Below are positions 19,568-61,640 of a stretch of 64,000 nt of DNA, piece by piece. How positions within the stretch are numbered: position 1 is the first letter of the stretch; each line of letters starts with the position of its first letter. The notes beneath the pieces are model-generated. The model ran no database searches and was not told where the DNA came from. It saw nothing but the letters and a program-made list of their open reading frames with translations. Source of the DNA: Halichondria panicea. Its lineage: Eukaryota > Porifera > Demospongiae > Suberitida > Halichondriidae. The stretch covers positions 4,284,169-4,348,168 of the forward strand of contig NC_087386.1 in assembly GCF_963675165.1 (NCBI RefSeq), written 5' to 3'. The position numbers and the translations under genes are program-made.

Positions 19568-20169
19568 GTATATGTAGCCCCTTTATCTGTAAACTTACTA
19601 CAGAAATTTGAAAGCTATAATATTATAGAAGCTATTAATATTTCAGAAGTTATCACTCTAACCAAAAGTATACCTAGAAACCAGTAAATCATGAATTATA
19701 TACACTGTGGACATTTGTAGACCCATAAAGGATACCTAAACCATTTAACTTATGAAGTCTGAGACCTTAGCTGTTTAAGGTTAGTCGATTATACCCACTA
19801 TAACAATTTGCTGTTGTTTTTATTAATCCCCCCAAACCCACCACCTTGTGTTTCCATAGAAACATTTTTGTAGCTTGGTCATTCACCTACACAATGGTAT
19901 CAGCACCATTTCTTAGAAAGGTTTCAATCAAAAGATAATTATCAACATTAATTTAAGTACAGCCACTCACACAGTTGTGGTAACCACTCTCTATATGCTG
20001 CATGGTTGCTACACTGTAATTGTAAGCGCCAACTCAGACTTAACAGTGTCCTAAAAAATCTCCATTGGTTGCTGTTATGTCGCTTATAATATATAGTATT
20101 ATATATGTCGCGAATAATTACTTTTTGACCCAATATTTTTACTTTCGTTATATTTTTTCTTTTCTTCAG
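19568..20169. other. Gene C intron with a repeat that is an empty site elsewhere
   Basis: The stretch 19830-19935 (CACCTTGTGTTTCCATAGAAAC, then CATTCACCTACACAATGG) is homologous to 41600-41659 plus 42112-42160. In that copy a 452-bp element has inserted; here the site is uninterrupted. No exon is seen. Confidence 0.65.
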
Positions 20170-36181: not shown

Positions 36182-36279
36182 CTGGGAAAAGTATATGGTA
36201 TATGCAATACACTGCTATAGGAACATAATTATGAGCGTTCTCAGCAGCTACACTGAGTACAGATACTCCATGCACTCAC

Positions 36280-37177: not shown

Positions 37178-37210
37178 TAAATTTGCAACCAACAGTGAGT
37201 TACTGTCCAA

Positions 37211-39783: not shown

Positions 39784-40111
39784 ATGGAACAATATTTGTC
39801 TAAACTCTTCTCTGATCACAAGGAGAAAAAAACATGCTTTCGAATAGAGTTGAGAAAATATCGTAACAGTAACAAACGTTGTTCAACAGATACAACCTGG
39901 ATAACCGGTTTGGACAAGACACCACAAATATTGGAGGTGGATTTTTTGTTGCTGATTATAGCTGGAGATATCGAAACTAACCCTGGCCCTGTTCTTACAA
40001 CACTGACACTCTCAACTCTTCATGAAGAATTAGTTGAGTTGACTAATCCACTTCTTTTTGGTAAACACTTGGGCATTCCTCAGTTGGTATTGGACAAACT
40101 TCATCCAAATG
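39784..40111 (+). CDS. Gene B exon 1: 2A-like StopGo motif and start of a death domain
   Basis: Proposed start ATG at 39784 (an in-frame upstream ATG at 39643 exists, but an acceptor-like CTCTAG lies between). Residues 1-52 are basic and polar. Residues 54-69 read FLLLIIAGDIETNPGP, a complete 2A-like ribosome-skipping motif (D-V/I-E-x-N-P-G-P); the Gly-Pro break would be at 39987/39988. After it comes TLHEELVELTNPLLFGKHLGI, the first half of a death domain. The donor GTATGT at 40112 is phase 1. 2A-like sequences near the N-terminus of immune receptor-like proteins are known in sponges and sea urchins. Expected result: a short leader peptide and a separate downstream protein, or an uncleaved fusion. 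Upstream exons, if any, are not identified. Confidence 0.75.
39964..39990 (+). promoter_or_regulatory. 2A-like translational recoding (StopGo) motif
   Basis: Codons for G-D-I-E-T-N-P-G-P. Every residue of the functional core D-[VI]-E-x-N-P-G-P is present, and a hydrophobic run FLLLIIA precedes it, as in active 2A sequences. It is in frame with the death domain in the same exon. Activity is not proven. Confidence 0.8.
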
Positions 40112-41050
40112 GTATGTGCTATAATTATGCATGCACGCATTAAGTTAATGCACCTTCTCTCTAATTATAGTAGCATATGCATGTGAGTCAGTGATAGAAT
40201 GCAATTTCAGTTAAGTGATGGTCGATCATTACCCACTCTTTGTGATCTGGATTCTGCCTGCATGCAGCAAAATTAATCAATGCAAACATGTTCATCATTA
40301 TCTATGATGCACTTGTCAATGAGTAGTTGGGTCCACTTAGTTGAGGGAACCCTATAATTAAGGGTGCACATACAGTGCATCCAGTCTAGAGAGTTGAATA
40401 CCACAAATGTATGAGTACAGTTGTACGGTATAGACTCTAGTTAATCCGGTCACCGTTGGGACAGTACAGCTTGGTCAGAATAGCGAGGTGGCCCCAGGAA
40501 ATAACCGCGGCTAAAAAACCGACCTTACCTCGAATATAAATTTTATGCGGTTCTGCCTCGAGGATAATTATGGTCTCAAGTGTAATCCATTGCCAAACCA
40601 TACCCAAAACGTCATATCCGGCCATTATAAAATTACATGAAAACCTTGTTTGGGGCAGCCAGCACTGACCAGTATATGGAAAAGCGAGTGGCCGCATTTC
40701 AGGATGAGTGTTGTGCAGTAAACATCTAGCTAGTATACTATTCTGTGCCAAATCAAATGGCCGATATATCGAGGTGGCCGTACGTACTTCAGAGAGCCGA
40801 AATAGCGACAGTCTACTGTTCTTAAAAGATTGGAACATTTCTAAGAAATTATGCTGACACCATTGTGTACGTGAATGAATAAGATACAACATTATTAAAC
40901 AAAAATCTATTGTGGGAAATAATGGTGAAAGCGGGGGTGATCATATAGAAAATAATGTGTGTAACATCGATTATCTTCGGAAAACTAAAGTCTTTCTTTT
41001 CTGATTAAAAGTTAGACAATTATTTTATTTCAAGCTTACTATATGTGTAG

Positions 41051-41440
41051 CAGTGGCGGATCCAGGGGGAGATCCCAGGGTGCTCCTTTCAGTCTAGATA
41101 TTGTGGCTTTACTACAGCCTACCAGCTAGTTATTTATCAGTTTTTGTAGCTATTGTCAATGATTGTACCTGTTGTTTTGATGTATCAACTGCCAAAGGAG
41201 TGTTCAGGTTAGCCTATAGGCTAGATAGTTGACTGTTTGTAGTTGGACTCCGCCCAACTAGACTGTTCGTGGCAGCTAGCTAGCTCTACGCAAGTCTATT
41301 ATGGGACTTCCCCTGTGATTTTCCCTAGTCATGTGTGACCGGAAGTGGACGTAATCCCAAAAAATTTTGCGCTGTGCGGGAATTCCACTACGCGCTCGTA
41401 GTTTGGAACCGCCCTTTCATTTTTCCTGGATCCGCCACTG
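41051..41440. mobile_element. hAT-like inverted-repeat element, CAGTGGCGGATCCAGG ends
   Basis: Ends CAGTGGCGGATCCAGG (41051) and CCTGGATCCGCCACTG (41440), a perfect 16-bp inverted repeat. This end sequence is widespread among hAT elements in animals. There is no transposase coding. The flanking TGTAG is shared by both sides; a full 8-bp duplication is not clear. Confidence 0.75.
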
Positions 41441-41659
41441 TGTAGATACGTAAGCAATATCAAACCTTGCGTAAAATAGCCAAAGTTCTTTAGATGTTGT
41501 GACGAAGTCCTAAACCTTAGCCGGAATCTGTTGGTCTTTCCTCTCCCTAACCGATTAGCCATTATTTGTAACAATTGTTTACTGTTCTATTATCACCACA
41601 AACCCACCATGCAACTTTCGTTGCTATGGAAACATTTTTAGTAGCTTATTCATTCACCT

Positions 41660-42111
41660 CAGAGGAGGAACGCCAGGGTCAATAGGGTCACGTTTAATTA
41701 AGGATTATTGTTCTGGGTTCTTGACCTTTGTTGCATATATATAGCAGCTTAGCGCTTCTGTTCTTTATTTGCCTGCTTGGAAAGCTTACTATACCTAGAT
41801 CTATCCAGTGCAGCAAGCCAGTATACATCAAAATTTATACCCTAGCCACGGAAGGCTAATTTCCATATCTTGTGGTTTTGAAGAATGCAATAAAAGGTCA
41901 AAGGTTGCAATTAAATCCTAGATCTCCTCTCTCAAGCTGATTCCTCTGGGGCGCGATAGCTCAACCGATTTCTGTTGTGATTATAAAGAGGATCAAGCTA
42001 TTGGTGGTGTATAAACTCAGGGGCGTGAGGGTAAACTCAGTTTTACATGTAAAACATAGGGCCACGTGGTGTTTTAATTAGTGACCTTTTGACCCTGGCA
42101 TTCCTCCTCTG
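41660..42111. mobile_element. Inverted-repeat element with 9-bp target duplication
   Basis: Ends CAGAGGAGGAACGCCAGGGTC and GACCCTGGCATTCCTCCTCTG. Flanked by CATTCACCT on both sides (41651-41659 and 42112-42120). The homologous unoccupied site at 19885-19900 reads CATTCACCT once, so the insertion and its duplication are shown directly. It shares the CAGAGGAGG start with 261-681. Confidence 0.9.
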
Positions 42112-42402
42112 CATTCACCTATACAAAATGGCAGCACCATTTCTTAGAAATGTTCCAATCAAAAGATATTAACATTTAAGTACAACTATACTCACACGTT
42201 TGTGGTGTTCTACTCTCTAGACTGGATCATGATGCACTAATGATTCTGTTTCCATCTGAACCCATTGCCCTACCCCACTGACCCACAGACATTTGCCATC
42301 GATTGGTATAATTATAGGCAGCGACTGATCTGTATCAATAACAAAAACAAGCATCTTCCCATCATGTCTATAAATTAATGCTTCTCTCCTAATTTCATGC
42401 AG

Positions 42403-42728
42403 ACGTCAGTGAACAGAAAAATACCCTGCTTCAGTACATTGCTAATAACTATGAACTATACGGATTTGATTGGGAGAAAATCGCTGATGCTCTTGATATA
42501 ATTTTATTGAGAGACCTGGCCACAAAGCTGAGGTCTAAATATTGTCAACATGGTAATGATTTGTTATGGCTATGTGATGATAAAGTTATTACATGATTGA
42601 TTTCCAAATTATCTACCGGTATGTCATTGTAGATCATTCATCTTCGAGTGATGAGTATCTTTCAGCAGAAGAGCCCCCTTCAAGTGATGAGCATCATTCA
42701 GCAGAAGAGCCCCCACCGGTGCAATTAT
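42403..42728 (+). CDS. Gene B exons 2-3: second half of DD1 and acidic repeat
   Basis: Exon 42403-42552 (50 codons) encodes NTLLQYIANNYELYGFDWEKI and DLATKLRSK, the last helices of the death domain begun in exon 1. Exon 42633-42728 (32 codons) encodes two copies of SSDEYLSAEEPP-like sequence, a 36-bp tandem repeat giving an acidic linker. Both exons are phase 1 at each end, with acceptors ATGCAG and TTGTAG and donors GTAATG and GTGAGT. They are short and were placed by phase and by the DD pattern. Confidence 0.7.
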
Positions 42729-45097
42729 GTGAGTTTCTAATGCGCATAGTAATCATTTGTGATATGTACTACCGTTCAATCATTTGTGATGTACTACCAA
42801 CGGTATAGTACATATCACAAATGATTACTACTGTATACTCTTCCGAGATTACGCCCACCCCCACTTTTGAGAGAAAGTTTCTGCATTGGCTAATTTGCCT
42901 TGAGAATATGCCCACCAGAAAGTGATGCATTTATTTTGTCAGTGAGAGCAGAAAATGTTTAGCAGTTTATTGATTATAGCTCAGACAATTGTCTTGTGTG
43001 GTCGACAAAATCTAGCCCTTCGTGATCATCGTGATAGTGGTACAGATGCATGTAGAAGGTGCACAGTCGGCAAGCACAAACCATGGCAACTTTAGGGCCT
43101 TGATAAACTTACAAATTATCAGCTGGAGACACCACCCGTAGAGAACATCTCGAGAAGGCAGGTAGGAATGCCACTTAGATACATACCCTGACATACAAAA
43201 CCAGATCATCAGTATCCTTGGTGACCAAATCTGTGAGAAGATTTTAAGGAAGGTTCGTAGCAGTGCCTGATAGCAGATGAGGTCACTGATTGCTCCAACA
43301 GAGAACAACTCTGGCCTGAGGTATGTTGAGCCAGGGTCTTGTTTACAATTTAACCTGGTTCACATGGAAACCTCTATAAGAACAAAAACACAAAACTTAC
43401 AAGAAGTTGACTGCCAGCTTCGATCTGGGAGGCTTTGATTTCTATGATAAATTAAACATACCATGTAGATTACACCAATCCATTGTGACATACCGTAAAC
43501 ATCCATTAGCACGAGTATGTTGGTCATCTATCTATATAGATATACTCCTCTATACAGAAGTGCTTGCGCCCCAGACGATCCTGCTTGAGAGAAGCAACAT
43601 TTGATGCATTTTTCAAACAAATTAGCCGCTAAAGGGTATGCATTTTGTGTACTAGCTGCTTTGCTGCCTGCATAGGTAGATCTATATATAGGTATATATA
43701 TCAACTTTCCAAAGGCAAATAAACAATCAAAAACGGTAGCTGCTAGATGAACAAATACGATGCGCAGGAGTCAAGAATGTAAGACAACAATTTGGTTCAT
43801 TAAAAGTGTCCCTATGTACCTCTTCTGGGATGCAGTGAGAACAAGAACAACATTATAATGATTAACAAAACACAACACAGTCCATGCAGTTAGGCTGAGG
43901 AGTTGGCAGTGTTCATCTTAATGTATCGTTGTGTTGCCACAAGCTAGTGTGGAGATCAGTGTTTTGAGCAGAGTGAGGTATAATTATATATTGCAAATGT
44001 ACAAGTGTATACTGCGCCATCATCTAAACCTGTTCATATTTGTATAGCAGTGCAGACTGTCTTTTCTTCTGATACTCTAGAGTGATAGAAAGCAAGCACA
44101 CACTGTATATACGTATATAGCTTTCAGTTTCAAAACTGTTGTTGGTTGTCACTCTACTAGATCTTCTTCAAAAAGGTGCCTTCTACAAGCTCTACTGATT
44201 TTCTATTTGTCTTTTGGCCGTCTTTTTTCTCCTAACTGGTCCTCGACTTGGAAAAATGTTTTGATGCAGGTTCAGTGCTGCACATCGGTTACCAACTAAT
44301 ATTATGGATGGCAAGCACTTGCAGTTACAGTCACAGACTCCCTAGTATCATCAAAATAATTAGTGTCAGGCTTTGTAAAACAATTATACATACATGCCTG
44401 TATAATAGCTCTTTCCATCCGCCACACAATAATAATCCGTAGTGCATGCGTGGAACACAAAGCTGCATTGCTATAATTTATATTCTTTTGATCATAAACT
44501 TGTTTATAGATCTCTATTACCAACTGTACAGCCCTGACACCATCATCTCAAGTACAAACTCCAGTAATTCCAGACCCTGCATGTTCCTTTGACCAAGGAT
44601 TCAATAGCAGCTATGGGCACTTCAATGTCAGACTCTGCAACACTCGATATTTCTACACTGGAGTACCGTATATAGAGGGTAGTTTTCATGGGGCAAAATA
44701 TTCGTGGTTTTTGTGGTTGAAGGTCTGACCATGAATATTTACCAAAATGAAGCGACCTTGCTTACCTTTACCTGCAGTGCAAGCTCCAACCATGAAAATA
44801 TTATCTACAAAATGTCTCAATATTGCTGAACCACGAATATTATGTCCTCCGAAAATTACCCGCTATACGTTTTTTTGCAATGATTATAATTTTATGGGTT
44901 TTATGATTAAATTAATAATAATCAGGCTCAGCTATGAACCACCTCAATACTAATTAAGAATGCATGGTTTTATTTCCTAAGGTTTGCTGCATGCATGGCT
45001 TTCGAATGTTTTAAGAGAGCCATTTAATTTAATCATAGTTTACGAATTACGCTGCAGTGCATGAAGCTGTATATATACTTTTCAATTATACATGCAG
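42729..45097. other. Gene B intron 3, no exon seen
   Basis: 2.4 kb between GTGAGT and CATGCAG. It contains one inverted-repeat element (44664-44870). A small palindrome lies at 42745-42825 (ATCATTTGTGATATGTACTA with its inverse). No coding signal is seen on either strand. Confidence 0.5.
44664..44870. mobile_element. Inverted-repeat element, TACCGTATAGCGGG family
   Basis: Begins TACCGTATATAGAGGGTAGTTT and ends AAATTACCCGCTATACG. It is closest to 22716-22922 and shares GCAAGCTCCAACCA and ATTGCTGAACCACGAATAT. Confidence 0.75.
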
Positions 45098-45262
45098 CTG
45101 ATCTGCCGAGAGTAGGACTTCAAGAACGGTTTCTAGTGCCAGACCCTGTTCCATCTCAGCAGCCTACCGAGGGTTCACTAGTGCCAACTAGGACTTCATT
45201 ATCAGTAGCACTGGGTCCTCCTGGACCCTCACCAAGTATACCAACACTAGTAAATGAAAAAG
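45098..45262 (+). CDS. Gene B exon 4: Pro-rich linker
   Basis: 55 codons, phase 1 both ends, acceptor ATGCAG, donor GTGACT. It encodes a Pro/Ser/Thr/Leu-rich sequence (FLVPDPVPSQQPTEGS, LGPPGPSPSIPT). It completes a Ser codon with exon 3. This is probably a flexible spacer between DD1 and DD2. No domain is recognised; support comes from open frame, splice sites and phase only. Confidence 0.6.
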
Positions 45263-45871
45263 GTGACTGTAATACACAATAGTTTATATCGGCTTGAGAA
45301 TATACAGTTTCAATACTTACAATTGTACTGTATATATATTTATACATAGTTAGATGTATATACATGCAGGTCAGAATCTTCACTGCAATATTCTTACAAA
45401 ATTACATTATAATGCTACTTAAATATGGCCTTCAGTTGATTATAATTATATACTTAATTGTGTTACTCTACTACCGGAAACGTTATCAATTCGGCGAATT
45501 TATATAGGTGAGGTTTGCCAATTTATAAAGCGCAATGCCCTGGTAATGCGCACACATGCATGCACACGCATGCGTATACCATAGTTGCCCATGCACGTAC
45601 CTGATTCGCACAGTTGCAGGTGTGACACAGACAGAGGAGGGAGCTCTATGGATTCCTTTGAGTTTGAGAGCTGTGTGAGAGGCTATCACGCCTAGAGTAT
45701 AGATGGAGTAGTATAGGATAATCATTGATCTGCATGCAGAAAAGACATGCATGCATACTGAAACTCAATTGAATGCATTCGCACCTATATAATGCGCATT
45801 ATGTAACCTCAATATTGGCACTTTTTTGTGTCAAATTAGCAATAATAATTATGTTTTTTTTTTCTGTGCAG

Positions 45872-46195
45872 GTATTCTAATGCTAATGAAAAGACACAAT
45901 GTTACTGATAAGCAACTCAACACTGAATTACAGGAAGCTGATTTCTCCCACTTGGCTAAATATTTTGATAGGATTGAGCTCTATATTTACGAGATGGATT
46001 TAACTCCTTCAGAACAAGGTGATGTGCAACTGAAGGGAAATCACAACATTCAAGATGCAATGATTATGTGCTTGTCTTACTGGCGAAGACACAATCCTTC
46101 GAAAGCGACATACAAATCTCTGTTGAACATCTTAGTGAGTCTTGACCAAGGATTGATAGCTGATTACGTGTGTCAGTACTTGGCGCAGAAAAATG
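45872..46195 (+). CDS. Gene B exon 5: death domain 2
   Basis: 108 codons, phase 1 both ends, strong acceptor TTTTTTTTTCTGTGCAG and donor GTGAGT. It encodes a DD-superfamily bundle: MKRHNVTDKQLNTELQ, HLAKYFDRIELYI, MIMCLSYWRRHNPSKATYKSL and IADYVCQYL. It is a tandem paralogue of the next exon (47939-48271), with about half its residues identical, so the two arose by exon duplication. Confidence 0.8.
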
Positions 46196-47938
46196 GTGAG
46201 TATTATTTATAGCAAATGTTCACTTGAGCCTCGTTCACACGCACATGCAGATTAATGTTAATAGTGCTTGTTAATACTTTCCTCGCTTTAGCCGACTATA
46301 GGGGGCATGGCTATCGAAAAATCGCTGTATAGACACTGTGTTTGAGCATAGATTAAAGAGGAGAGTCCAAGCAGTGAGCCCCGCCCTTATTTCCTGCCCT
46401 CTTGGTGTTTAGCGAGCCCCAACCATCTGTCCTGCATTTGCCAACATGACGTGTCTATATTATAGGGTCTATTACTGAGATCATAGCTAGGTAGGAAGCT
46501 ACCTTTCAGAGGTAAAGCTAAAAAGAAAGAGCCGCACTTTAGCATGGACCAAGTTCCTGTACCTGGTGCATGTATATATATATATATATATATAGCTATA
46601 TCGAGTAGCATTTGTTGTCTTGATTGATATAATAATTACCCGAGGCGGGTTAGGGTTAGGCCTAACATATTTTCCAATGTACACATATTCTAGCAGCCAT
46701 TTTGGAATGATGATATCATATGATGTAACAGGTGGTGGTCCAATGGAAGCGCCAATAGTTGAACTTTCAGTACCTGCACTCAAATTGATACAATCACATT
46801 TAGTTTAGAAGATATTCACAAAAACGTAAAAAATCAAAAGTTCTACTCTCTTTGGTTGTTGCACTGTATGTTTTCTTGGATTTTAATTCGTGGATTTGCA
46901 AAATATGCTTCGTTCTCGAGTTATGCCTAGTTTTGCTTACTTGTAATGTTATTGCAGCTTTTTCAGAGAGTGCATGCGTAGAAAAACTTGTCCATGGAGT
47001 GTTGCTACTCTACTTAGTAATTAGCTCTGCACTAGAACGCTAGCTATTGGTAGCTGCAAGAGTGAGAAGAGAGCTGCAAGGCAGGCTCTACTGTACTGGT
47101 GCAGGAGCCATTACTATGATTTTATCTTGTAAACTGTGTATTTTTGTCATCCTTTTTAGCATCAATCATGGTCGATAATTTCCCATTCTTTGAGTTTCCC
47201 TGTGATTATATTATATGCAGCAAAATTACCGTACGAACATTATGATATCTATGTGTATTAGCAATAATTATAGCTAGTATATTATGTTATCTAGCTTTTT
47301 GACACATCCACCAAAGCATCAGCACCCACGTCACTGTACTTTCATTATACAAGAGTAGCTGAATAGCAATAGAAGCTATCGGCTAATCCACCGAGGCATC
47401 TGCACCCGCTGTACTTTCATTATAGAAGAGGAGCTTAATAAAAACAGAAGCTATCGGCTAATTGGGTATTGATATCCAAGTAGAAGCGTAGATCTACAAT
47501 GTATAATTTTTTGCACTTCCTGTCAATGAAAGGGGTGGGTCTGCAATGAAGTCAGAGGCTGCCGGTAGTGTACATGCATGCAACTTTGCAGCTCTTTTAT
47601 AACTCTTGTATAGCTAACAAACAGCTATATTATATATATAGCGCTTTAGTGCAAGGCTAACTTGTAAGTTGAATAAACATTTTGTGCAAACAGATGTGAA
47701 GATTCTAAAGAAACGCAACAGCCTTCACTGTAAGTCAAACTAGCCGTAACTTGAGCTAAATCCACGTATCAAAATCCAAGAGAACATGACTAGAAGCTGT
47801 TAGTTTTCGTCTCATTGCAATCGTTGAGCAGTTACAGCTGGAATACATACACATGCACACACACACAGCTTTACCGTATCTCTCGTGCGGCTATACCTCG
47901 AGGCATGTTTATATTAATGCTTATAATTTCTGTTGCAG
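46196..47938. repeat. Gene B intron with dispersed repeats
   Basis: Contains a TG-family repeat remnant (46855-47170), three degenerate CCACCGAGGCATC tandem units (47300-47460) and the long element ending CTCGTGCGGCTATACCTCGAGGCAT (47520-47910). From about 47270 on it matches 900-1600, upstream of the broken gene A exon: the left part of the segmental duplication. A TA run lies at 46571-46594. Confidence 0.65.
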
Positions 47939-48271
47939 TACCTGGGCCATTAACTATTCAGCAGCTAAGAGAAAAATACAATGTCACTATTGAGCAACTT
48001 AACAGTGAAATAGAGGAAAAGGACATTCCCTACTTGGCTGAGAATTTTGACAGGATTGAGTATTACTTCCATTTGATGAACTTGACTGAGAGTGAAAAAA
48101 CAGATTTACAAAATGAAAATTGCAATCAAATTGCAATGATTAATTGCTTATCTTTTTGGCGAGGGCACAATCCTTCTGAAGCAACATACATGTCTCTACT
48201 GAATATCTTACTGCGTCTTGGCGAAGGAGAGATAGCTTATAATGTCTGTCAGTATTTGGCTGAACATATTG
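47939..48271 (+). CDS. Gene B exon 6: death domain 3
   Basis: 111 codons, phase 1 both ends, acceptor CTGTTGCAG, donor GTGAGT. It encodes TIQQLREKYNVTIEQLNSEI, YLAENFDRIEYYFHLMNLTE, CLSFWRGHNPSEATYMSL and IAYNVCQYLAE. It is the intact counterpart of the broken exon at 1609-1817 in gene A. It probably mediates DD-DD contact; the partner is unknown. Confidence 0.8.
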
Positions 48272-48758
48272 GTGAGTACGTTTTTTTATACTGGCAATTG
48301 CATGCCTATAATTATTGCCTATAATTATATTATTATAGCATGCGTACAATGTACCTGTTAGTAAGCGCATGCGCCTATAGGGAAAAGAGCAGGCCTATGC
48401 GCCTATTATCCGGATGTGCTTATAGAAAGTAACCACGCCCACGACGTTTCAATGAAGCATTAGCTAGCTCGATCGTTTGTCTGCAAGAGGTCTATAGTCA
48501 TATCTGTGACAGCAGTAACACAACTACCGGTAGTGAAAGAGACTTAACAATAAAGAGTGTGGAGACCAGTTGTTGGGCATAAAACTGTGCAGAAAACCAT
48601 GCGCCTTCTCTCCAGGCTTCTTGGTCTGCTAACAGGTATGCGCCTATTCGATAATGTGCGCTTATTAACCAAGTACCCTTATTAACCGGTAGTTATAGAG
48701 TGGGCAATAATATAATAATTAAACAACGCACGTATATCCATCTACTCACGATATGCAG

Positions 48759-50417
48759 GCCCTAAACAAGAAAGTGAATCTCTTACAAAAGCTCTGAATC
48801 CAAACTTGAGCCACTCATCTGCTTCACCAATTTTAAATGTTAAGGCAAGCTATATACGCTTTGCTTGTAATTGTAGTCGCTGCTCCATTTTTGATTATGT
48901 ATTAGGAAAAAAATGTCCTGATCAAAATGAATTTCCTTTCTTCAAAATTGGTTTTAGTGAAGAATCAGTGTCTGATGATGAATTGTCTGATGATGTGATC
49001 TACGATATAAGGAAGTTCAAGAAATCTCTGCTAGACCAATCAAGAAACATGCATGTTAAATTTTCTGATTTAATGTTTGACACGTTTACGACTTTAGCAG
49101 ATCCGACTCTGCACTATGATGATATTACAAATGTGAAGCATTATCTAGAGCTACTCTTTTGCCCTGATGAGCATTTTCCACAAGTTTCTCGGGAAGCAGT
49201 ATCTGGTGATTTAAGCTCTGTGCAAGATTTTCCTAGCCTTAGTATATTTTTAAACAACAGATATTGTACTTGGTATAACTATAAGCTGCTACTACTCTTA
49301 AGAAAAAAGTTTCTTTATTCTTCAACGGATTCTTCTACAGAAGATTTTGAAATGAATAAATATGAGAGTGCATTCAAAGACTTTGTATATCGTGCATGTT
49401 TTCTCTATTTAAACAATGTAGGCGATACCCCGGAATATCAAACTGTCGTCATTTGCAAGGTTGATATCGATTTTAATAAAATTTCACAACTGCAAATCGA
49501 AGATTTATGGAATGTTTTTACTGATATTATTGGTTTGTCTAAGTATCATCTCATGTTCAATGAAGCCAGAAAAGGTTGCACTGAAATCGTATTTCGAGCA
49601 CCCCATTACATCACAGAGTTAAAGATCTTGTCAGCATTTCAGTTGCGTAGCTTAAGAAAGCACGATATTATTGCTGTCAGAATTGGTGATCGGCATCTCT
49701 TTAGACATGATCATGACTTACTCATCACTTGTGAAAAGAAGTTGGAACTTTTACACGTAATTGATGTTGGCGTAAGTCCGTGCACTCTATGGAGGGGGTT
49801 GCATAGTGGTCAACCATGCACTGTTTTAAAATGTGAGGCAGAAGAAACCAAATCAAGCTTCACTGAGTACGCTCACTACATTCTGGAAAACAAACACGAG
49901 CATGTAGTGAAAGGCGGTTGCATCCATACGGATGACGAGCTTTCACATAATCCAATAATTGTACTCAAAGAAGTTCAATTGCAGACAATCAATGATTATC
50001 TTTCTTCATCTCGTAGTGCCTTGTCTGAAATGGAACAGCTTTCATTTTTATTAGACATTGCTAAGGGCTTTGCTAGTCTACAGAATGATACTTCTGCCTA
50101 TTTCAGAGGAACTGAAAACTCAGTTTTTGTACACGTTGAAGAAAGTATTGTCAACTTAACTGCACAGTTTTTTCCTCTGTATAAGCAATCATACTTTCCA
50201 CGTGCTCAGGAGTACGCAGCCGCAGTATCTTCAGCAGATTTGACATGGCTTAAAACAACAACTATTTTGTTGCATCATGACAGTAATGATGAAAAATCCG
50301 AGCTACCCGGGAGTCACGTGCTATACAACATTTTTAAGCACAAATGGTTGTCTGACGATGAGCGTTTACGTCCTCATAATGTATCGGAAGTTACTAAAGA
50401 AATTGAATACATTCTAG
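48759..50417 (+). CDS. Gene B exon 7: N-terminal module and kinase-like region
   Basis: 553 codons, phase 1 both ends, acceptor ATGCAG, donor GTAAGT. Same layout as the gene A exon 3087-4706: Cys-rich start (FACNCSRC...GKKC), WYNY motif, EIVFRAPHYI block and the C-terminal kinase-like region ending KWLSDDERLRPHNVSEVTKE. The first third differs strongly from gene A and has a longer acidic stretch (SVSDDELSDD), while the last 200 codons are nearly identical. HRD and DFG are absent, so a pseudokinase is the most I would claim. An ATG at 48806 exists, but phase and gene context argue for an internal exon. Confidence 0.75.
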
Positions 50418-50464
50418 GTAAGTCAAGATAATTATTGTTCACATGTGCTAATGTTTCACCGTAG

Positions 50465-52356
50465 AATTGGAGAAGACGAGGCTAGATATGATTGATGTGG
50501 TAAGCAACTCGAAGTTTCAGGAAGTATCACATTTGAATATGATCCTTATCGGGCACACTGGAGTCGGAAAGACCTCAATTCGAAAGCATCTACAAAACCT
50601 TTTATTTGCCAAGAATGAAACCAGTACTATCCTATTTGAACATGAGCTTCTATTTGTACAAACAGTTGAATTGTTACCTGATTCCAACATCCCAGTTTTC
50701 CAACGTAATGATGCTGTATACAGTAGTGAGCAGGATAAGGTATTTCTTACTTTGTGGGACACAGGGGGCCAGCCAATGTTTCAGGATCTTCTCCCTTGCT
50801 TCGCCAAATTCAGATCCATTTATGGCATTGTGTTTCGTATCAGTGATTTTTCGGATGATTCTAACGCTGTTACAAGACCCACCTGTCCACTTGAGAGCGA
50901 AAGTGAATCTCCGTATACTTGCAAAGAGTACATTAAACGATGCCTTGCTTTTTTGGAGTTCTTTGCATTTGATATGAATCAAAGGTTTATTCAACTACCT
51001 GATGAAGTAAAAAATGCATTGTTTCAAAATGCTGCTGATGATATAAACCTCTTTCCTAAAGTCGCTTTAATTGGAACTTTTAAGGACGAGATGATGATTC
51101 AAGACAATGAAATAAAAGGAAAGTATAATGATTTCAAGAAAAATTTGCTTCAAACTGAAAGGTCCCTTCGCCCAAGCTATGATGACACTGTATTTGAAGT
51201 AGACAACACCAAATCAGGAGATTTCTGTGAAGACCCTGGAATTAAAGATTTACGTGAGAAAATAATAACGGAAACACAGCTCACAAAGACAAAGATACCT
51301 TTGAAATGGATTGCATACAAACTTGACTTGGAAAATGAATCACGATTACAACAGCCCTGCACAGGCATTATAACCCTTAGTAAAGCTAACGAAATAGCAA
51401 AGAAGCATCAAATCAGCTCAAGTGCAGCTCTAAGTTATTTCCATGAACTAGGAATATTTCTGTGGTACCGTGAGACAGAATCTCTTAACAGTTATGTGAT
51501 AGTGGAATCAAGACATCTGCTATCTATTCTAGGCACTCTTCTTAACCCCAAAACATTCATTATTTTCCCTGGTGAATGGAAAAACCTTCAGGAACATGGC
51601 TTACTGAGTAATGATGTCGGTCTTACACTTCTTGATGAGACTATGAGCAGGACAGGGGTTGATCGTGAATGGATTTTTAGCTTCTTTAGAGAGCACCACC
51701 TAATAATGAACTTGTCAGCTGAAGGCTACTTCATTCCCTCTTTGCTTCAAGTACTCCCAATTTGTTCAAATCCTTTCCACATCTGTGATCCGATTTGTTC
51801 AAATCGTTTCCACAAATGTGATGCAAACTGTTCTATGTGCACCCTCCTCCCACAAGCCAAGGATATGGAAGTAGCCCCATTATTTTTAGTGCCTAAGTGT
51901 AAGTGCATACCACCTGGCTTTTTCCCTCGACACTAATGACAATGCTTGCTGGAATTCAAGGCGGCGAGATAATTTGGAAGATATCAGTAAGCACGATGAG
52001 CTGCAAAAATGTGGTTTCATTTATTGTAGGTGGTAACGCTTTCCTTGTTTTCACTGAATTCATTGATTGTATTCGAATCTACTGTACTTCTGTTCCTAGT
52101 GCAAGTATTTCACAATCACTGTGTAGAGGCATCTTGCGTCAAATAAGAGCCCAAATTGAGCGGTTCTTTTTGGAGAGTAGTAGCCTTCCAATCATAATTA
52201 CATTCGCTTGTCCTTGCTCCAAGTCCCTTCATTTTTTACCTTCTGTGCCGGCTAACTCGCATGATAAAGTGATTTGTACTGAGTACCCAGGATATGTTTT
52301 TGAACCTTGTGAAAGTCATCTGAAGTGGCTACAAAAGAAAATTGCTTCAGACAGAG
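50465..52356 (+). CDS. Gene B exon 8: Roc GTPase - COR, with a 2-bp frameshift
   Basis: Acceptor ACCGTAG after a 47-bp intron, donor GTAAGT at 52357. Nearly identical to gene A: P-loop GHTGVGKTS, DTGGQ, ALIGTFKD and COR block. At 51929-51933 the sequence reads CGACACTAATG where gene A has CGACTAATG; the extra two bases shift the frame and produce a stop at once. Downstream the frame reopens in register with gene A. A second difference is an extra Cys-rich unit near 51770-51830 (NRFHKCDANCS), a tandem duplication. If the insertion is real, this allele makes only a truncated GTPase. If it is an assembly slip, gene B is whole. Confidence 0.8.
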
Positions 52357-52415
52357 GTAAGTTTAAAATTTATACATGCAACAGAAATATAGAAATGTAC
52401 ATACCTCATGCGCAG

Positions 52416-54254
52416 ATGCTGAAGAACAGCTCAAAATTGCCCTGAAAGAAGGAGGAGTGGACGTACTTGTATCAACAGTGCTTTTTGTGGGATCTAACTT
52501 TTCTGATCAGATTGTAATGGAATCTGGTTCGACATGTATTTCCAGGTTTTTCATTCTGGAAGACAACAACTTAAAATTGTTACAATCTGAAACTGTAGAA
52601 GCATTTTTAGCGAATAACGCAGCCGAGTTAAAGCAAAAGTTTCCGTTATCAGCTAGTGATCAAGATCAAGATAGTTTACCTGATCCACCCAAGACAGAAG
52701 CCTCTGCAAATGATTTGTCAGAATCGAAGGATAACTTGCCCAAGGCTGAAACGTCAGCAAATGATTTATCAGAATCGAAAGATTTCTTGCCACACGAACA
52801 ACACAGTCCACTTATAGCTTATGCTGTCAATGAACCACAGCAAAATGCTGGAAATGATGAACGGCGTATTACGAAACATATGCCACTCGACCCAAGTGAG
52901 GAACATAGCTCACCTGTTATTGATTCGATGCATATCCCGACTGATCAGCTAACAGACAATAAAAGCCGCATAGTCACATTAATGCAAGGTGCTAGTGATG
53001 AGCTACAAAGTCTCCATTTAATTCATGCAGTGGAGTGTAAGCATTCTCTTATCTTAAGCATTTTACCGTTGCTTACTCCGCAACTATCATCTTTCGGTAT
53101 TCTTGATGTTCAGTTCAGAGCGGAGATGCTTGAACATTTCCCAGATATTTCTGAAAAATGGATAGTAATGGCTCCATTATTGATGAGTAAAATTTCACAA
53201 AATAAAATTGATCTTGTAGAAAACAGGCATACATTTGCTTCGGATTTCTCTGGTGAAGTTAATCAAGAAGAAGTTTTTAAAGTTTTGGGGACTTTGCGGA
53301 GCATAAACAAAGAACAGATTCCTTATTCTTGGTTTTATCTCTGGAATTCTGTTAAAAACACACTTCAACTAAACAATTCAAAAGTGATTACTCTTGATAA
53401 GGTTATTCACATTTCAGATACTTGTGGTATCCAGCCTGGTCAGCAGCTAAAGGACGCTCTTGCATATCTACATAAATCTAATCTACTAATCTACTTTAGT
53501 GATATTCTTCCCAACTTTATTTTTGAAGACGTCTCCTTGCTAATGTCTTTATTGATCTCTTTAATCGGAAACATTAGAAGTACTGGACTGCTTACATACG
53601 CTAACTTTTATGATGTTCAAGGTGTTTATGACAGTGCTTTTACACATGATAATGCTATAAAGCTACTCAAAGGGTTATGCTTACTCTCTCAAATTAGCTC
53701 GCATCAGTTCTTAATGCCGTGTGTTCTCATAACACTTTTAAGCCCTCAAGATTTGAGTAACTATTGCAAAGAACCCAGGGACTCTTGTCTTGTAGTTCAA
53801 CACCCAATGGCTACCAACGTTTTTGGATTCTTAATCTGCTTCGTAACGTCTCAAGAAAACAGTGACTTCTGGCCATGGAGAATACGCACAGATCTCAATA
53901 AGGGAGATCCGGTTTGTGTATATAAAAATTGTGCACAATTTTCTCTGCCTGGGTATGATTGTACAATAACACTATTTGCATATAGCTCTAGTATTAAGAT
54001 ATATACCGAGTACAAGGATTATCAACCACCTTTATCTCTGATCAAGACGACTGTGATTCTTGGGATTGAAAAAGCATGCGAAAGTTATCATTACGCAATG
54101 AAACCGTTGACTTGTGATATTGGCTTTACTTGCACTTGTGGCTCCACAGACATAGAACATAACATGATTTGGTGTGAACAAAGTTGGATATGTTCTTTCA
54201 ACCCAGAGCAATCTTTTAAGCTTTCACAATCACAACAACGCTGGTTTGATGAAG
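52416..54254 (+). CDS. Gene B exon 9: linker and second COR-like region
   Basis: Follows a 59-bp intron (GTAAGT...GCGCAG); donor at 54255, phase 1. Encodes about 610 residues: a Cys-poor start, two 17-residue repeats (52688-52789), a His/Asp/Glu-rich linker, then the COR-like block (YSWFYLWNSVKN... DALAYLHKSNLLIYF), and a C-terminal Cys-rich part (CDIGFTCTCGSTDIEHN). The frame is intact. Differences from gene A are more frequent here than in exon 8. Confidence 0.8.
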
Positions 54255-54362
54255 GTATAATTATATATATACCTATGTATAAGTAAAATTATTACACCAT
54301 GCAAGTGGCAGTTGTATAGCCTATATAGAGATACGCACATACCAAATTTGTTTACTTTTTAG

Positions 54363-54644
54363 GTATCTCTTCAGATGATGATTCCATAACAGTAAACAGC
54401 CTTTTTAGAAAGTTCTTAGCTCGATATGAAGTATGGTATAAAGTGGGAATGGAACTTGGTCTTGACACTCCAACACTATCACAAATATCATTGAGGTACC
54501 AGAAGAACCCGAGTCTTGCCTTAATGGAAGCTGTCAGACAGTGGTTCAAGAAAACTGATAATCCATCTCTTGACCTAGCCTCCTTCACTGCACTCTATGA
54601 GGAAGTGCGGCCTGGGATCGAGGCTACTCTTGACCGTGAACAAG
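54363..54644 (+). CDS. Gene B exon 10: death domain 4
   Basis: 94 codons, phase 1 both ends, acceptor TACTTTTTAG, donor GTAATT. Core VWYKVGMELGLDTPTLSQI and LMEAVRQWFKK as in gene A exon 9983-10219. Unlike that copy it has a longer tail (FTALYEEVRPGIEATLDREQ). The codons for VRPGIEA are the 20-bp GCGGCCTGGGATCGAGGCTA, the same word as a repeat end found elsewhere in the window. If not spliced, translation would stop 2 codons after the donor. Spliced, it meets the helicase exon at 56745 in phase. Confidence 0.75.
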
Positions 54645-54905
54645 GTAATTGATAAATAAGCTTTGAATTTGCAAAATTAAAGGTATATTATTATCAGTAG
54701 TGATATAATAATGAAAGCACCGCGGATGCTGCTGCCTCGGTGGAAGTGTCAAATCTACATAATATAAAGCTACTAACTATAGCTATTACAGAGTTTTCAG
54801 GTTGCTTGATTGCTATAAGGTCACCTAAGGTGGATGCACATGCTCATTAATTTGCTCAGTCAGCACAGTAGCGGTGCAAGTCTTGACAATACATGTAGTC
54901 TCAGT

Positions 54906-55038
54906 CAGAAGAGGTCAGACATGCGTGCACGAATCACTACAAGTTCAGTGCATTGATGTCATTGCGGTCACATGATAATGTCCAGGCCAAATGCACTAAA
55001 CTTGTAGTGATTCGTTCATGCATGTCGGACCTCCTTTG
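54906..55038. mobile_element. Short hAT-like inverted-repeat element
   Basis: Ends CAGAAGAGGTCAGACATG and CATGTCGGACCTCCTTTG around inverted ATCACTACAAGTTCAGTGCA and TGCACTAAACTTGTAGTGAT. It is related to 261-681 by its terminal bases. The flanks AGTCTCAGT and AGTCTCGTT look like a worn 8-9 bp duplication. Confidence 0.7.
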
Positions 55039-55138
55039 AGTCTCGTTCTATTCTACAAAGCAAAGATGGAGAAAAAAAAGGGGATCAACCTGCTGAAGTC
55101 AATTTTAAGTAATTTCTCGGTGTTCCAAAGAATCTTGA

Positions 55139-56172
55139 CTAGCCTTCTGCCATTCTAACATTTTCTTTGTCAAATTTGAGCTCCAACATAGAGGTTATGA
55201 AGGGGCCATTGGGTTCTTGTCCCATGGACTTGAGAGCACGCAGATGTTGTTTCACAATGTCTCTCAATTCCCGTCCTGATCCATCTTTGAGATTGGGTAT
55301 TTCACAGATTTTCTTCGCATGAGTCTGGTGAATGAGGCGAGGACGATTGTAATTCAGAGATGCGACAGCTTCCTTATACTGATCCCCTGTGTGGGATAAT
55401 CTTTCAATGATGGATCCATCCTTGATAGAAAGACGAAGGTATACCAATTTCTCAGTGTCAGATATGTCAATGTAGAATTAATTGCTCCCAGAAAAACTCC
55501 AGTGCAAAATGTCACCGTCAAATGTAGGGACTTTGAGGTAACGCCTCGGGGTTCTGGTGTAGAGGAATCTGGAACAAGTGTTGGATTGTAAAGCAGGCTA
55601 GTGACTTCTACTGACATGTCAAAAATCTTGAGTTTCAATAGCCGAGTAGAGAGTCAAACAGTTCGGGTGTAATGGCTGCTATTTCACTTCTTAGATCGGA
55701 CCGCTTCCTCTTGAATTCCGAGAGTTGCTGCTAATATAAGTGTATACTAAGTGTACGTCACGATGCTCAGGAGTTAATCTGGTTACATCGGAATTCACTG
55801 CAATTAGCCGTGCCTGCAAGTGGGCTAGCCGGCGTTTGATAACAGTTCGATGGAATCGGTCCACTAGAAACATGTGTAGCCAATGAGGAGCCGCACAACA
55901 CTTGCAATCTGGGATAGAGTTTGGTTATATATATCGTCATTATGTTGGTCTGGGACGTCTAGTTCGGCACCAACTAGCTCTTCGTCGTCCGAAGCATCAA
56001 TCACACTGAAATGGTGTGTCTTGAAGTCAGTCTCTCTAATTTCTTGTTGCGCACGGGCAGCAATGGAGAGGTTGTACTCAGTTGCTTCAAGTTCAGTTAC
56101 TTCGGTCGCTAGTCTTGTTATGGAGGCCTTGACAACGCCTCTTCTGCGCTTCAAAGCTGTCAAATCAGCCAT
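55139..56172 (-). mobile_element. Decayed BEL/Pao-type retrotransposon gag remnant
   Basis: Minus-strand frames at 56172-55864, 55873-55691, 55638-55354 and 55447-55139 form one gag-like reading with frame breaks. A Lys/Arg-rich coiled-coil start (LTALKRRRGVVKASITRLATEV) and the DUF1759-type stretch (SIIERLSHTGDQYKEAV, then LRALKSMGQEP) are typical for BEL/Pao gag in animals. No protease, reverse transcriptase or long terminal repeat is seen. It sits antisense inside the gene B intron between the last death domain and the helicase. It is non-functional. Confidence 0.7.
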
Positions 56173-56229
56173 TTCAATTGTTATACAAGTTCAATTTCAA
56201 TTCAAATTTGCACCCTTGTGTAGTTCAAA

Positions 56230-56744
56230 TTAGTTAATTTGAACAGGTGTGCACCTTTGTGCCAAACAGCGAATGGACGTGCACCTTTGTGCAGAGTAGA
56301 GAACAGCTAGTACTGTAGCTTCAGCGTCCACGGAGGCATCAGCACTGTCTGAAGCACATCTAATATGTAGACTAAGAGATGATAGATCCACATGCACTAT
56401 AGGACTAACTTCATATAACCATACGGAGGGTGAATTAAACAAACTTCTCCAGATTAGGACTCATGAAGATATGTCAGCAAGTATAATACGTATAATTATA
56501 CTGATATGTTTATATCAGTGCCTCCAAACGCAATATAGTTGGGGTTTAGAATGGGTAATGTAGACTCACAATACTGAACTCACTTACATGCAAGGTTTAT
56601 ATCTTACCGTTAGTACAATCGATATAACCATCCATTGGATCATCATTTAATCCACTCTTGAGGGTATGACAAATGTGTGACCCACTGCTTATGAGTTTAG
56701 TTGACCCACTATAGTTTGTTAAAATGTCCCACTTGTTTTTACAG
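56230..56744. other. 3' part of the DD-helicase intron, no exon seen
   Basis: The intron 54645-56744 ends CTTGTTTTTACAG. Apart from the gag remnant and the small element I see no exon. The words GTGCACCTTTGTGC recur at 56247-56260 and 56280-56293. Confidence 0.5.
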
Positions 56745-58838
56745 TGTATCAACTAAAACTCCCAGCAGGACATAAGATTCGAGACTATCAACAAGAGCTT
56801 GCTGAGCCTGGGATTAGGGGTGAGAATTACATCTTTGTAGCTCCAACTGGTAGTGGGAAAACACTTGTAACAGCAATTATAATTACGGAGCATCTGAAAA
56901 AGGTACAAGCATCAGGTGATATGGCCAAAGTGATTTTCTTGGTCAACACAAGGCCACTAGCCGATCAACAATATGCAACTCTGCAATCATATATCCACGG
57001 GGCTCATGTAGAATGCATTGTGGGGGATAGTATCGGCACAATAAAAGATGCACTTATCCAATGTGAAATTGTGGTTTGTACTGTCGGGAAATTTTTCGAT
57101 GAGCTAAATCGCGACATGGTCAGATTAGCTTTACTATCAGAAACTCAAACCAAAATTACCCTAGTCATAATGGATGAGTGTCACCATGCACGGAAGTCAT
57201 CATTACAAGCACAGCTTATGTTCCACTACATTCGTCGCAAGCTCGAAGATCCTTCGGCACAGCTGCCTCAAATTGTTGGTCTTACAGCTTCACCTGGTGC
57301 AGGTGATAATCCAAACTTAGACACGACAAAAACAATTGACCATTTAGTCAACCTCTGTGCTTTATTAGATGCCACATCTGGAATAGTCACTGTTCAACAG
57401 AATGTGGCCAATTTGGAACGGTTTGTTAGGAAACCAACACTTAGCCGAGAAATTGTTTCGAATCGAAGTCAAAGCGAAACATTTGTGTGCTTGATCAAAG
57501 AAGAAATGGTTAAGCTTGAGCAACATACACCTTTAAAGACTTCGTTTCCCAAATGGTCTCAGAATTACGAAACTGTCGCTTGTGAAGCCAAGCAGCCACT
57601 AGAACTTAGCAATAATCCAATGTTCAGGGATAAGATTTCTACCCTCAGACTACTGGTTTGCTATTGCCAAGCTCTGAACATCTATATGGACTTAAGACAA
57701 GAAGATGCCATCAAGGTTCTAGAAGATTTCACGGACCTACCCGATGAGGACCACAATTCAACAAAGCATGAGCAAACATTAAAGATAGGACTCCACACCC
57801 TGAAATCTAAGCTGAATACACTCCAGTCTGTTGAGAATCCGCTCCTACAAAGAGCTAAAGAATGCATCAATGAACAATTTCAGAACAACCTGAAATCACG
57901 TGGAGTATTCTTTGTACATAAAAAAACGTCATGCTTATGCTGTTTGCGAATGGCTGCAGAGCCTCCAGTATAGTTTTTTGAAGCCAATAGTCATTACAGG
58001 ACAGGGTGGCAATGGAATGACACAAGCTGATCAACACGTTGTCATGGAAAATTTCAGGAGTGGAGATAGCAACATCTTAGTGGCAACTTCAGTTGCTGAA
58101 GAAGGACTAGACGTTCCTGCATGTAATTTTGTCATCCGATTTCAACATGTTTCCAATGAAATTGCTACAGCCCAAACTCAAGGGCGAGCTCGGGCTGAAG
58201 AAAGTGAGGTGATTACTATTCTGTCAAGTGATTCATCGATGTACATGAAGGAAATTCAAAATTTTGAGCGCCTCGAGCTTGTCAACAAAATTGTTAAAAA
58301 CAATTGGTTCCCAAAAGGTAAAATACTCCATGAGAAGCTAAGAAAGCAACAGACACTCATAATACGCCAAATGAACATAACAAAACTTTTACGTCAACAA
58401 CGTCTGCCAAGTCGATCTGGTGATAGGGAACGAATCAAGTTACGGTGCAGAAAGTGCAAAACAATTGCTTGCTTTGGCTCAGACATATATACAGCTGAAG
58501 GCTCATCACATCACGTTGTTCCAGGTGAAGAAATAAAAGATAAACTGGTCAAGAAACCACATCACAAGCCTGGCAAACTTGATGAAAATGTGATCAAAAC
58601 ACACAAAATTCACTGCAAAGTTTGTGATGCTGACTGGGGAATAATGTGCATTTGGCCAGTAGAAGGGTTTGAGTTTCCAGTCTTGAAATGTAAAAGCTTT
58701 GTGTTTCAACATGAAACCACAGGTAGCTTGTTCCCTGTTGCACAATGGTCCAGAGCCCCATTTGAGCCATTGCCACTCGACGTATGGATTGCTGAGCATT
58801 TTCCGAGCCCCGATTCCGACACTGACTTTCTGATTTAA
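56745..58838 (+). CDS. RIG-I-like helicase with C-terminal RNA-sensing domain (one frameshift)
   Basis: One exon, acceptor TTTTTACAG, stop TAA at 58836-58838, about 697 codons. Motif I APTGSGKT at 56840-56863, motif II DECHH at 57173-57187, motif III TASPG; the C-terminal helicase half shows SVAEEGLDVP and QTQGRARA. The RIG-I type C-terminal domain has zinc ligands CRKC (58446-58457) and CKVC (58614-58625) with DWG after the second pair. The RLR/Dicer branch of SF2 helicases binds double-stranded RNA. The first in-frame ATG is at 56921, after the P-loop, so the exon must splice to an upstream one; the death-domain exon 54363-54644 is the nearest in phase. An A7 run at 57920-57926 has one base too many, separating the two helicase halves. 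Vertebrate RLRs carry CARDs where this one would carry a DD. Confidence 0.85.
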
Positions 58839-59089
58839 TACGTATATAATATAGGTATTTAATAGTTGCTAGTGACAGACAATTAATGTTTTTTTAACTA
58901 GAATTTTGTTAACTACTATTTAGAGGTAGACTCTAATAATTATATTGCACAGTTTGTGTGTTTTAAAAGTACAATAATTTTAATGAGATCCATGATTTAA
59001 TTTGTGTTCTGGGAATCAGGAATGTGACATGCTTACATGATATGCTGAGCCATTGGTTTTAGACTCTATAATTTGTGTGTGCACATGTA

Positions 59090-59809: not shown

Positions 59810-61640
59810 AGTTCCACTAACCCTTCAATCTCAGACTATCTCTGTGTTGCAAAGACGGAATTCGAGCACATACTCGAGCTGGGCATCATCAGACCTTCTA
59901 TAGTGCCTGGGCCTCCCCACTCCACAAGGTTCCTAAGAAGACTCCTGGTGACTGGCGCCCCTGTGGTGACTACCATGCTCTCAACCGTTCAACAGTGCCT
60001 GATCGGTATCCTGTACCTCACATCCATGATTTTTCTTTCTTTCTACAGGGTTCCACTATATTCTCAAAGCTGGATCTTGTACGTGCCTACCATCAGATTC
60101 TAGTGGCCCTTGCGGATGTATTCAAGACGGCGATTACCACCCCCTTCGGACTGTTTGAATTTGTGAAGATGCCCTTCGACCTCAGGAACGCTGCCCAAAC
60201 ATTCCAGCGATTGATAGACCAAGTTCTCCGCGAGGCCTACGCCTACGTAGACAATGTTCTCATTGCCAGCCCCACCCACGATAAGGACTTGCAAACTGTT
60301 TTCGAACGCCTCTCTGCCAACGGTGTGACCAACCTGGATTTCCTTGGACACCACATTTACCAACACGGTATCACCCCTCTCCCAGACAAAGTGCGATCTG
60401 TTCGTGAATCTCAATCTCAACGCCAACTCCGGCACTTCATTGGACTTATGAACTTTTTTTTACCATCGCTTTCTACCTCTGTGCTGACCTTATGCAACCA
60501 CTACACAAACACAAAACACAAACCCTCACTTGCATGGAATGACTCGACTCAGCTCTGACCTCCTTCAACGCAACCAAGGATGCCCTTGCTAACGCTTCCC
60601 TCCTCTCTTACCCTCAACCTGATGCCGCTCCCACCTGTCTCATGACCGACGCATCCGACACTGCTGTTTACACGCAACCACGACGACGCACTGTGTTCAA
60701 CTCCCTACACGGTCTCTCTCATCCAGGAATTCGTGCCACCCAGAAACTAATTACTGCTCGATTTGTTTGGCCAGGCATAAACTCGGATGTTCGTTGCTGA
60801 ACCCACTCCTGTGTACAGTGTCAACGTGCGAAAATCCAGCGACACACAACAGCCCCACTAACACCCTTTTCAACACCTGACAACCATTTTAATGTCATCC
60901 ACATAGACCTGGTTGGACCATCCACATACCTTCTTTCTAACCTGCGTTGATCGATTTACTCGATGGCCCGAAGCCACCACAGAAGCTGTAGCAAAAGTAT
61001 TCCTCAGTGGTTGGATCTCGCGATTTGGCGTACGTACCATCCACTATTGTCACAGACCGCGGACGACAGTTCGAATCGTAACTTCATCTCTCCAAACGCT
61101 CTCGAATTACCTCATACCACCCTCAATCCAACGGACATTTTCACCGGCAACTCAAAGCCGCTCTCAAGGCCCAAATTCAACCAACGGCTTGGATGGATAC
61201 TCTACCTTTTATCCTTCTAGGTACATGTATTCGGACTGCACTTAAAGAAGACATCTCCGCCACCATAGTTTATGGCACCACCTTTCGTCTGCTCGATGAA
61301 TTTTTTTCTCCTTCACCAACTAACTCTCTGCCAGACCCCTCCGCATTTATCAACCAGCTCTTTCGGAATCTGCAACCAATACCCACCCGTTCCACCAATA
61401 GAAACTCTCACATTCCCAACGGACTAGCATCCTAGTATCAGCCACATGTTTTTGTTCGCCATGATGCTGTACGGAAACCACTCCAACCACCCCTATTATC
61501 AAACGAACTAATAAACATTTCACCCTTAATCTGAACGGTCGCCACGACACAGTCTCCATCGACCGCCTCAAACCAGCCCATGAATTTCGATCATCGACTA
61601 CCCTCACGAACACTACTACGTCCACATTGTATAGAGAAAG
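59810..61640 (+). mobile_element. Decayed Ty3/gypsy retrotransposon pol fragment
   Basis: Reverse-transcriptase fragments in several frames: [35 protein letters not shown] and YVDNVLIAS (the YVDD box with Asn), then [11 protein letters not shown], as in Ty3/gypsy elements. Downstream parts resemble RNase H and a zinc-binding His-Cys region (HPGIRATQKLITARFVWPG in one frame, near 60720-60790). An integrase-core remnant follows (FLTCVDRFTRWPEA, 60930-60990). Many stops and shifts; non-functional. Long terminal repeats are not recognised. Confidence 0.8.

Follow-up and report, generated by a model that had tools for sequence, protein, structure and literature searches.

A stretch of 64,000 nucleotides from the sponge Halichondria panicea (assembly GCF_963675165.1, contig NC_087386.1, positions 4,284,169 to 4,348,168 of the forward strand; hereafter the window) contains a Roco GTPase sequence followed, on the same strand, by a RIG-I-like helicase sequence. 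A first-pass annotation had proposed that the two form a single gene encoding a 2A motif, four death domains (DD1-DD4), a pseudokinase-like module, a Roc-COR GTPase and the helicase. We compared these parts with their relatives in the same genome, and the comparison suggests that they are probably two loci of different origin.

Organization of the locus

Eleven exons can be chained from 39784 to 58838 if two frameshifts of one or two bases are allowed. As the annotation had said, all ten internal boundaries are in phase 1 in their own frames, and all ten have GT/AG. The exons are as follows.

39784..40111, plus strand: exon 1, StopGo/2A motif (39964-39990) and first part of putative DD1
42403..42552, plus strand: exon 2, second part of putative DD1; DNA conserved in paralog L011, no Pfam Death match
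42633..42728, plus strand: exon 3, acidic linker
45098..45262, plus strand: exon 4, proline-rich linker
45872..46195, plus strand: exon 5, DD2 (Death E 0.008, below cut-off)
47939..48271, plus strand: exon 6, DD3 (Death E 0.096, below cut-off)
48759..50417, plus strand: exon 7, possible TRADD-like N domain (about 49440-49690) and pseudokinase-like stretch (about 49730-50416)
50465..52356, plus strand: exon 8, Roc-COR, with a two-base frameshift near 51927-51934
52416..54254, plus strand: exon 9, second COR-A-like stretch and C-terminal region
54363..54644, plus strand: exon 10, DD4, followed by a phase-1 GT at 54645
56745..58838, plus strand: exon 11, 5'-truncated RIG-I-like helicase copy (DEAD, Helicase_C, RIG-I_C-RD), with a one-base frameshift near 57919-57927

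The searches covered the whole genome assembly (131.5 Mb, 39 contigs; those named below are labelled C1, C6, C7, C8, C10 and C11), and the labels L007-L022 stand for paralog loci taken from the same genome for comparison. No known RNA family was found in the window at gathering score, and an NCBIfam scan of five pieces gave general helicase and P-loop matches below cut-off and no specific one. Phase-1 acceptor-like AGs are common among open reading frames (ORFs) of the window: in those of at least 100 aa, they occur within the first 60 bases of 10/36 plus-strand and 5/29 minus-strand ORFs. Therefore, the phase-1 chaining of exon 11 is weak evidence of a link to the exons before it.

Domains of the Roco part

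Exon 1 encodes GDIETNPGP at 39964-39990, which bears out the StopGo motif of the annotation and fits the 2A consensus, D(V/I)ExNPGP; its skipping activity is putative. Pfam analysis detected Roc in exon 8 above the cut-off (E 4.2e-10). It is followed by COR-A, which aligns over the full profile at E 4.0e-8 (33.7 bits versus a cut-off of 35.3) in the window and at 8.8e-8 (32.6 bits) in the sibling copy. Although COR-A falls just below the cut-off, we count Roc followed by COR, the arrangement of a Roco protein, as present. The COR-A-like stretch in exon 9 has E 2.4e-6, also below cut-off. The Roc-COR GTPase that had been proposed was thus recovered by Pfam, as were the helicase and its RIG-I C-terminal domain (see below).

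In exon 7, PK_Tyr_Ser-Thr barely exceeds its cut-off (E 4.7e-5, 23.3 bits versus 23.1). This borderline match speaks for the proposed pseudokinase-like module, but the sibling exon reaches only 0.013, and 3/7 members of the exon 7 family match this profile at E ≤1. Comparison of the stretch with PDB profiles gave only interleukin-1 receptor antagonist (E 0.39), which is not usable, so the pseudokinase label is based on the Pfam match. The N-terminal module of the annotation may be a TRADD-like N domain, as suggested by one weak match to TRADD-like_N in the relative L020 only (E 0.031, below cut-off); exon 7 of the window has no TRADD match at E ≤1.

None of DD1-DD4 reaches the Pfam cut-off for Death. 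DD1 joined across its intron and DD4 alone have no Pfam Death match, and DD4 has no match to PDB profiles at E ≤1. In the DD4 family, 3/8 members match Death at E ≤1 (best 0.013), and a profile comparison of DD4 with Death-type exons gave a probability of 80%. Of the four death domains proposed, DD4 thus resembles Death-type exons by profile, and the set of four is only weakly supported.

The Roco family and its tandem array

The Roc-COR exon has 11 strong copies in the genome: the window copy, three at 95% identity on the same contig and seven at 55-58%. The remaining 47 of the 58 matches in this search are weak (23-32% identity). A search with the DD4 exon gave 17 matches. Each of the 11 strong Roc copies has one of them downstream on its own strand, at a start-to-start distance of 3.9-5.2 kb; the other six are weak and located elsewhere. 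Because every strong Roc copy has a downstream DD4 exon, this comparison firmly assigns DD4 to the Roco gene. We reject the idea that DD4 supplies the RIG-I-like gene with its Death domain, since DD4 tracks Roc in 11/11 cases and no RIG-I-like locus is found among the 17 matches. In a more permissive search, the best match of DD4 to a RIG-I-like Death exon was weak (L007, E 0.010).

For exon 1 with the 2A motif, the genome has nine matches: C10 holds four near 4.27-4.42 Mb, and the other five are 47-58% identical. Because of the four C10 copies, we read the region as a four-unit Roco tandem array. Three of these copies are identical over 109 aa and one is 93% identical. The identical exon 1 is found in the array units at C10:4273608, 4323952 and 4421287, even though the Roc exon of the window shares 95% identity with its counterparts in the other units. 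A second copy of the same Roco gene lies within the window at about 3080-10244 (plus strand), with 85% DNA identity over 5.6 kb and an open exon 8. This sibling shares 98.3-99.8% identity with two other C10 copies, which points to recent duplication or gene conversion.

DD4 is followed by a phase-1 GT in 11/11 Roco copies, as read by eye without donor scoring, and does not look like the final exon of the Roco family. A further exon after DD4 was read as an ORF in all seven divergent copies, and the two that were scanned with Pfam contain a clear Death domain there (3.5e-14 and 1.2e-17). Farther 3', within the flanking DNA examined, 2/7 copies have a kinase ORF and 2/7 a Kelch ORF. Pfam scanning of one kinase and both Kelch ORFs gave 5.9e-37 for the protein kinase (L020 7998-8864, plus strand) and 6.2e-27 and 5.4e-18 for Kelch (L022 81-1022 and L021 2018-3154, both minus strand). 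These ORFs are presumably part of the same Roco genes, and the C-terminal modules seem to vary between copies. In the DNA examined around the four C10 copies (to about 7 kb in L012 and about 5.6 kb in L014 for the array siblings), the first 230 residues of the post-DD4 exon gave a best E of 0.14. Its last part matched at 20577-20849 (4.7e-6), within a death-like ORF of another gene. Because the post-DD4 exon was not found around the C10 copies, the GT at 54645 is without a known partner here. Compared with its sibling, the Roco part has dN/dS of 0.35 over exons 8-10, a value that leaves out exon 7 (identity filter) and exons 1-6.

Two other regions of the window contain related ORFs. At 15908-18367 and 20118-21270 (both plus strand), a large GTPase-like ORF with GPAGTGKT and SGGQ motifs is followed by death-like ORFs; Pfam gave only Ras (E 0.21), and the region appears to hold a further Roco-like gene that has diverged more. 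Upstream of the array unit, at 36241-37264 on the minus strand, are protein kinase ORFs (PK_Tyr_Ser-Thr 1.2e-18, Pkinase 6.1e-13).

The RIG-I-like helicase copy and its relatives

The helicase of exon 11 matches DEAD (3.6e-24), RIG-I_C (4.2e-6), Helicase_C (2.6e-14) and RIG-I_C-RD (2.7e-23) in Pfam. It has the composition of a RIG-I-like protein: a DExD/H helicase with Hel1 and Helicase_C, which lie on the two sides of the frameshift, and RIG-I_C-RD. The helicase search gave 18 matches at nine places, namely the window, three open and two broken copies on C1, and three weak ones (25-33%) elsewhere. The open C1 copies are 92%, 46% and 46% identical to the window copy. Among the nine places, only the window locus has a strong Roc copy next to the helicase.

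All three open C1 copies consist of a Death-like exon and then an exon with a linker, the helicase and RD. In the nearest of them, whose best solved-structure match is RIG-I (3e-82), the linker is about 100 aa long and the Death-like exon has a Pfam E of 0.0013, below cut-off. The Death-like exons of the other two are 41-44% identical to it; of these, the one scanned with Pfam, in L010, has no Death match. DNA homology between the window and the nearest C1 copy extends over 56747-59032 with 91.5% identity and starts inside the exon of the C1 gene, after the linker. The linker and the Death-like exon of this relative were not found between DD4 and the helicase, and the open frame has no in-frame ATG ahead of helicase motif I. 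The window helicase also has no N-terminal signalling domain in the same gene; DD4 would serve as one only if spliced on. Other differences from the C1 copy are an in-frame 9-base gap and the last few codons.

A retrocopy origin of the helicase is not supported: the homology runs past the stop to 59032 (by eye patchily beyond), and no poly(A) tract was seen. The broken C1 copies, L008 6223-7579 and L009 6255-9432, have 5' breakpoints that differ from that of the window copy, and L009 is interrupted by an insert of 0.75 kb whose inverted ends measure 61 bases. A reverse-transcriptase ORF of a retrotransposon (RVT_1 5.2e-14) is located just after the window helicase, at 59821-60558 (plus strand).

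The junction

The following features lie between DD4 and the helicase.

54905..55039, no strand assigned: palindromic high-copy repeat
55139..55477, minus strand: antisense retrotransposon-type fragment (DUF1759, E 1.6e-10)
56617..56748, plus strand: right terminal end of a DNA transposon family, whose last bases are the AG acceptor of exon 11

Repeats on C7 (three), C8, C6 and C11 (two) match either the stretch 56617-56748 as a whole or its right part. In 4/4 copies fetched (two from C7 and one each from C8 and C11), the similarity ends at the same ...TTTTTACAGTG terminus. The two bases that follow are TA in three of them and TG in the C11 copy. A C7 element has a matching inverted terminal repeat about 1.18 kb away at its other end and no ORF longer than 82 aa. 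The helicase homology begins at a TA that is also present in the C1 relative. Because the repeat copies stop at the same bases and the helicase homology starts right there, it is the transposon end that provides exon 11 with its AG acceptor. Judging by its TA target and its termini, the transposon presumably belongs to the Tc1/mariner group. Besides 56617-56748 itself, the window contains no opposite end that matches a 14-base pattern with at most two mismatches, a search in which about one chance match is expected and a diverged end is possible.

Origin of the locus

Taken together, it is likely that a unit of the Roco array and a 5'-truncated RIG-I-like duplicate lie here head to tail, joined at a transposon end and both frameshifted. 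The first locus (39784-54644) would be one unit of the four-copy array, with the 2A motif, death-like exons, the TRADD-N/pseudokinase-like exon, Roc-COR, the second COR-like exon and DD4; judging from its family, such a unit would presumably be a GTP-switched scaffold for death-fold assembly. The second locus (56745-59032) would be a duplicated piece of a RIG-I-like gene of the Death-helicase type, with its nearest relative on C1. We infer that a TA-target DNA transposon inserted at the border between linker and helicase and that the 5' side was later lost, which would leave the helicase directly after the transposon end.

None of the relatives compared has these frameshifts. In exon 8, two bases have no counterpart in the sibling within the window, and over this exon each of the three array siblings keeps an open frame of 1269 aa. 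In exon 11, one base of an A run is extra when compared with the C1 copy. With two frameshifts, no single open reading frame crosses both parts, and neither part would now make a full-length protein. An established single Roco-helicase gene is therefore not supported, because the paralogs keep the parts apart, with DD4 paired to Roco and the helicase to its own Death-like exon, the helicase is truncated at the transposon end, and both parts are frameshifted. The first-pass annotation had offered two adjacent genes as its alternative. Two loci of different origin agree with this, but DD4 is neither shared nor owned by the helicase.

Several observations weigh against this reading. The frameshifts could be assembly errors, the one in the helicase lying in an A run, and besides one frameshift each, both parts are open. 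The helicase has dN/dS of 0.25 relative to the C1 relative (dS 0.129), compared with 0.55 and 0.89 for the two broken copies. Its differences from the C1 copy fall in 7/299 conserved columns versus 39/393 others (P=4e-5), a bias that is not found in the broken copies (19/270 versus 30/376 and 18/187 versus 30/245). Codon positions 1+2 relative to position 3 give a ratio of 0.57 on the window branch. Open genes have lower values (0.30 for the C1 relative and 0.37 for the pair of distant open copies), and the broken copies have higher ones (0.84 and 1.97); these ratios, computed from branch lengths with a very distant outgroup and a fixed topology chosen from dS, are rough. In that topology, the window copy splits off before the C1 copy and the broken copies, so we call the C1 copy a relative and not a parent. 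From these comparisons, the window helicase copy looks constrained in its history, not simply dead. Furthermore, 11 changes in the 121 columns of the transposon end are private to this copy. The junction is therefore not necessarily young; the end is too short for good dating. Part of the constrained history of the helicase may thus fall after the junction, and this is the best argument for a chimera.

Alternative explanations

One alternative, which we regard as unlikely, is a chimera made by the transposon and selected for part of its history. In such a chimera, the Roco donor after DD4, without its usual downstream exons, would have captured the helicase through the transposon-end acceptor. 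That the locus is one chimeric gene at work, in which Roco lost its downstream exons and the helicase and RD became its new C-terminus, is quite improbable, and a working fusion protein is equally so; a spliced chimeric RNA is less unlikely. A spliced transcript from DD4 to the helicase is possible, since a phase-1 GT that lacks a known partner exon here could meet a phase-1 acceptor, although a phase match of this kind is common by chance. The variable Roco C-termini, the constraint on the helicase, the missing ATG before motif I and the missing upstream exons of the relative also speak for the chimera. In addition, PMC8195603 describes Death/TRADD-N proteins with variable C-termini, RIG-I-like fusions and links to transposons. 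However, a full-length fusion product would be hindered because both frameshifts would be crossed, and the three close array siblings are without a helicase.

It is likewise improbable that two working genes stand side by side. The Roco gene would then end at or soon after DD4, while the gap would hold a promoter and a first exon, both unrecognised, from which the helicase is expressed as a RIG-I-like or LGP2-like protein that lacks the linker. If the DD4 donor is read through, a stop follows after two codons, and an ATTAAA is located at 54676, consistent with such an end; the constraint on the helicase fits here as well. However, the gap consists largely of repeats, and the helicase part has neither an ATG ahead of motif I in its open frame nor an uninterrupted frame.

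Comparison with known systems and significance

Sponges have RIG-I-like genes with Death and helicase domains, and Amphimedon has two RIG-I-like genes, according to PMC8998645. The nearest C1 relative shares with these receptors the Death-like exon, linker, DExD/H helicase, Helicase_C and RIG-I_C-RD, whereas the window copy is without the Death-like exon and linker and has a frameshift. Like the Roco proteins LRRK1/2, DAPK1 and MASL1 (PMC3995007), the window gene has Roc and then COR, and its relatives in the same genome have Death and kinase exons after them. It differs in having a 2A motif, several death-like exons and a possible TRADD-like domain before Roc, and no Pfam LRR match was found in the exons scanned. 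Shuffling of the LRR exons of Roco genes is described for brown algae in PMC11378527.

The Death/TRADD-N immune proteins (PMC8195603) combine one to three Death-like domains with a TRADD-N-like module and a C-terminus that varies. The window gene resembles them in its death-like exons and in the C-terminus that seems to vary within its family; its possible TRADD-N is based on one weak match in a relative. RIG-I-like fusions of these proteins are reported from cnidarians and brachiopods, and a transposon mechanism is proposed; sections 10 and 11 of that paper mention no Roc-COR plus RIG-I fusion. Nor is a Roco plus RIG-I fusion found among the top-ranked literature matches listed.

On the sober reading, DD4 is firmly assigned to the Roco family, and the locus shows that a phase-perfect chain of domains can arise by accident where a transposon ends. 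A chimera that is expressed, or once was, would give a momentary view of the domain shuffling by transposons that PMC8195603 proposes for Death/TRADD-N immune proteins. The donor, the acceptor, a close relative of the source gene and helicase-free siblings would then all be identifiable in one genome. Such a protein would couple RNA binding to Roc-COR and death-fold assembly, bringing a GTPase switch and dsRNA sensing together in one polypeptide.

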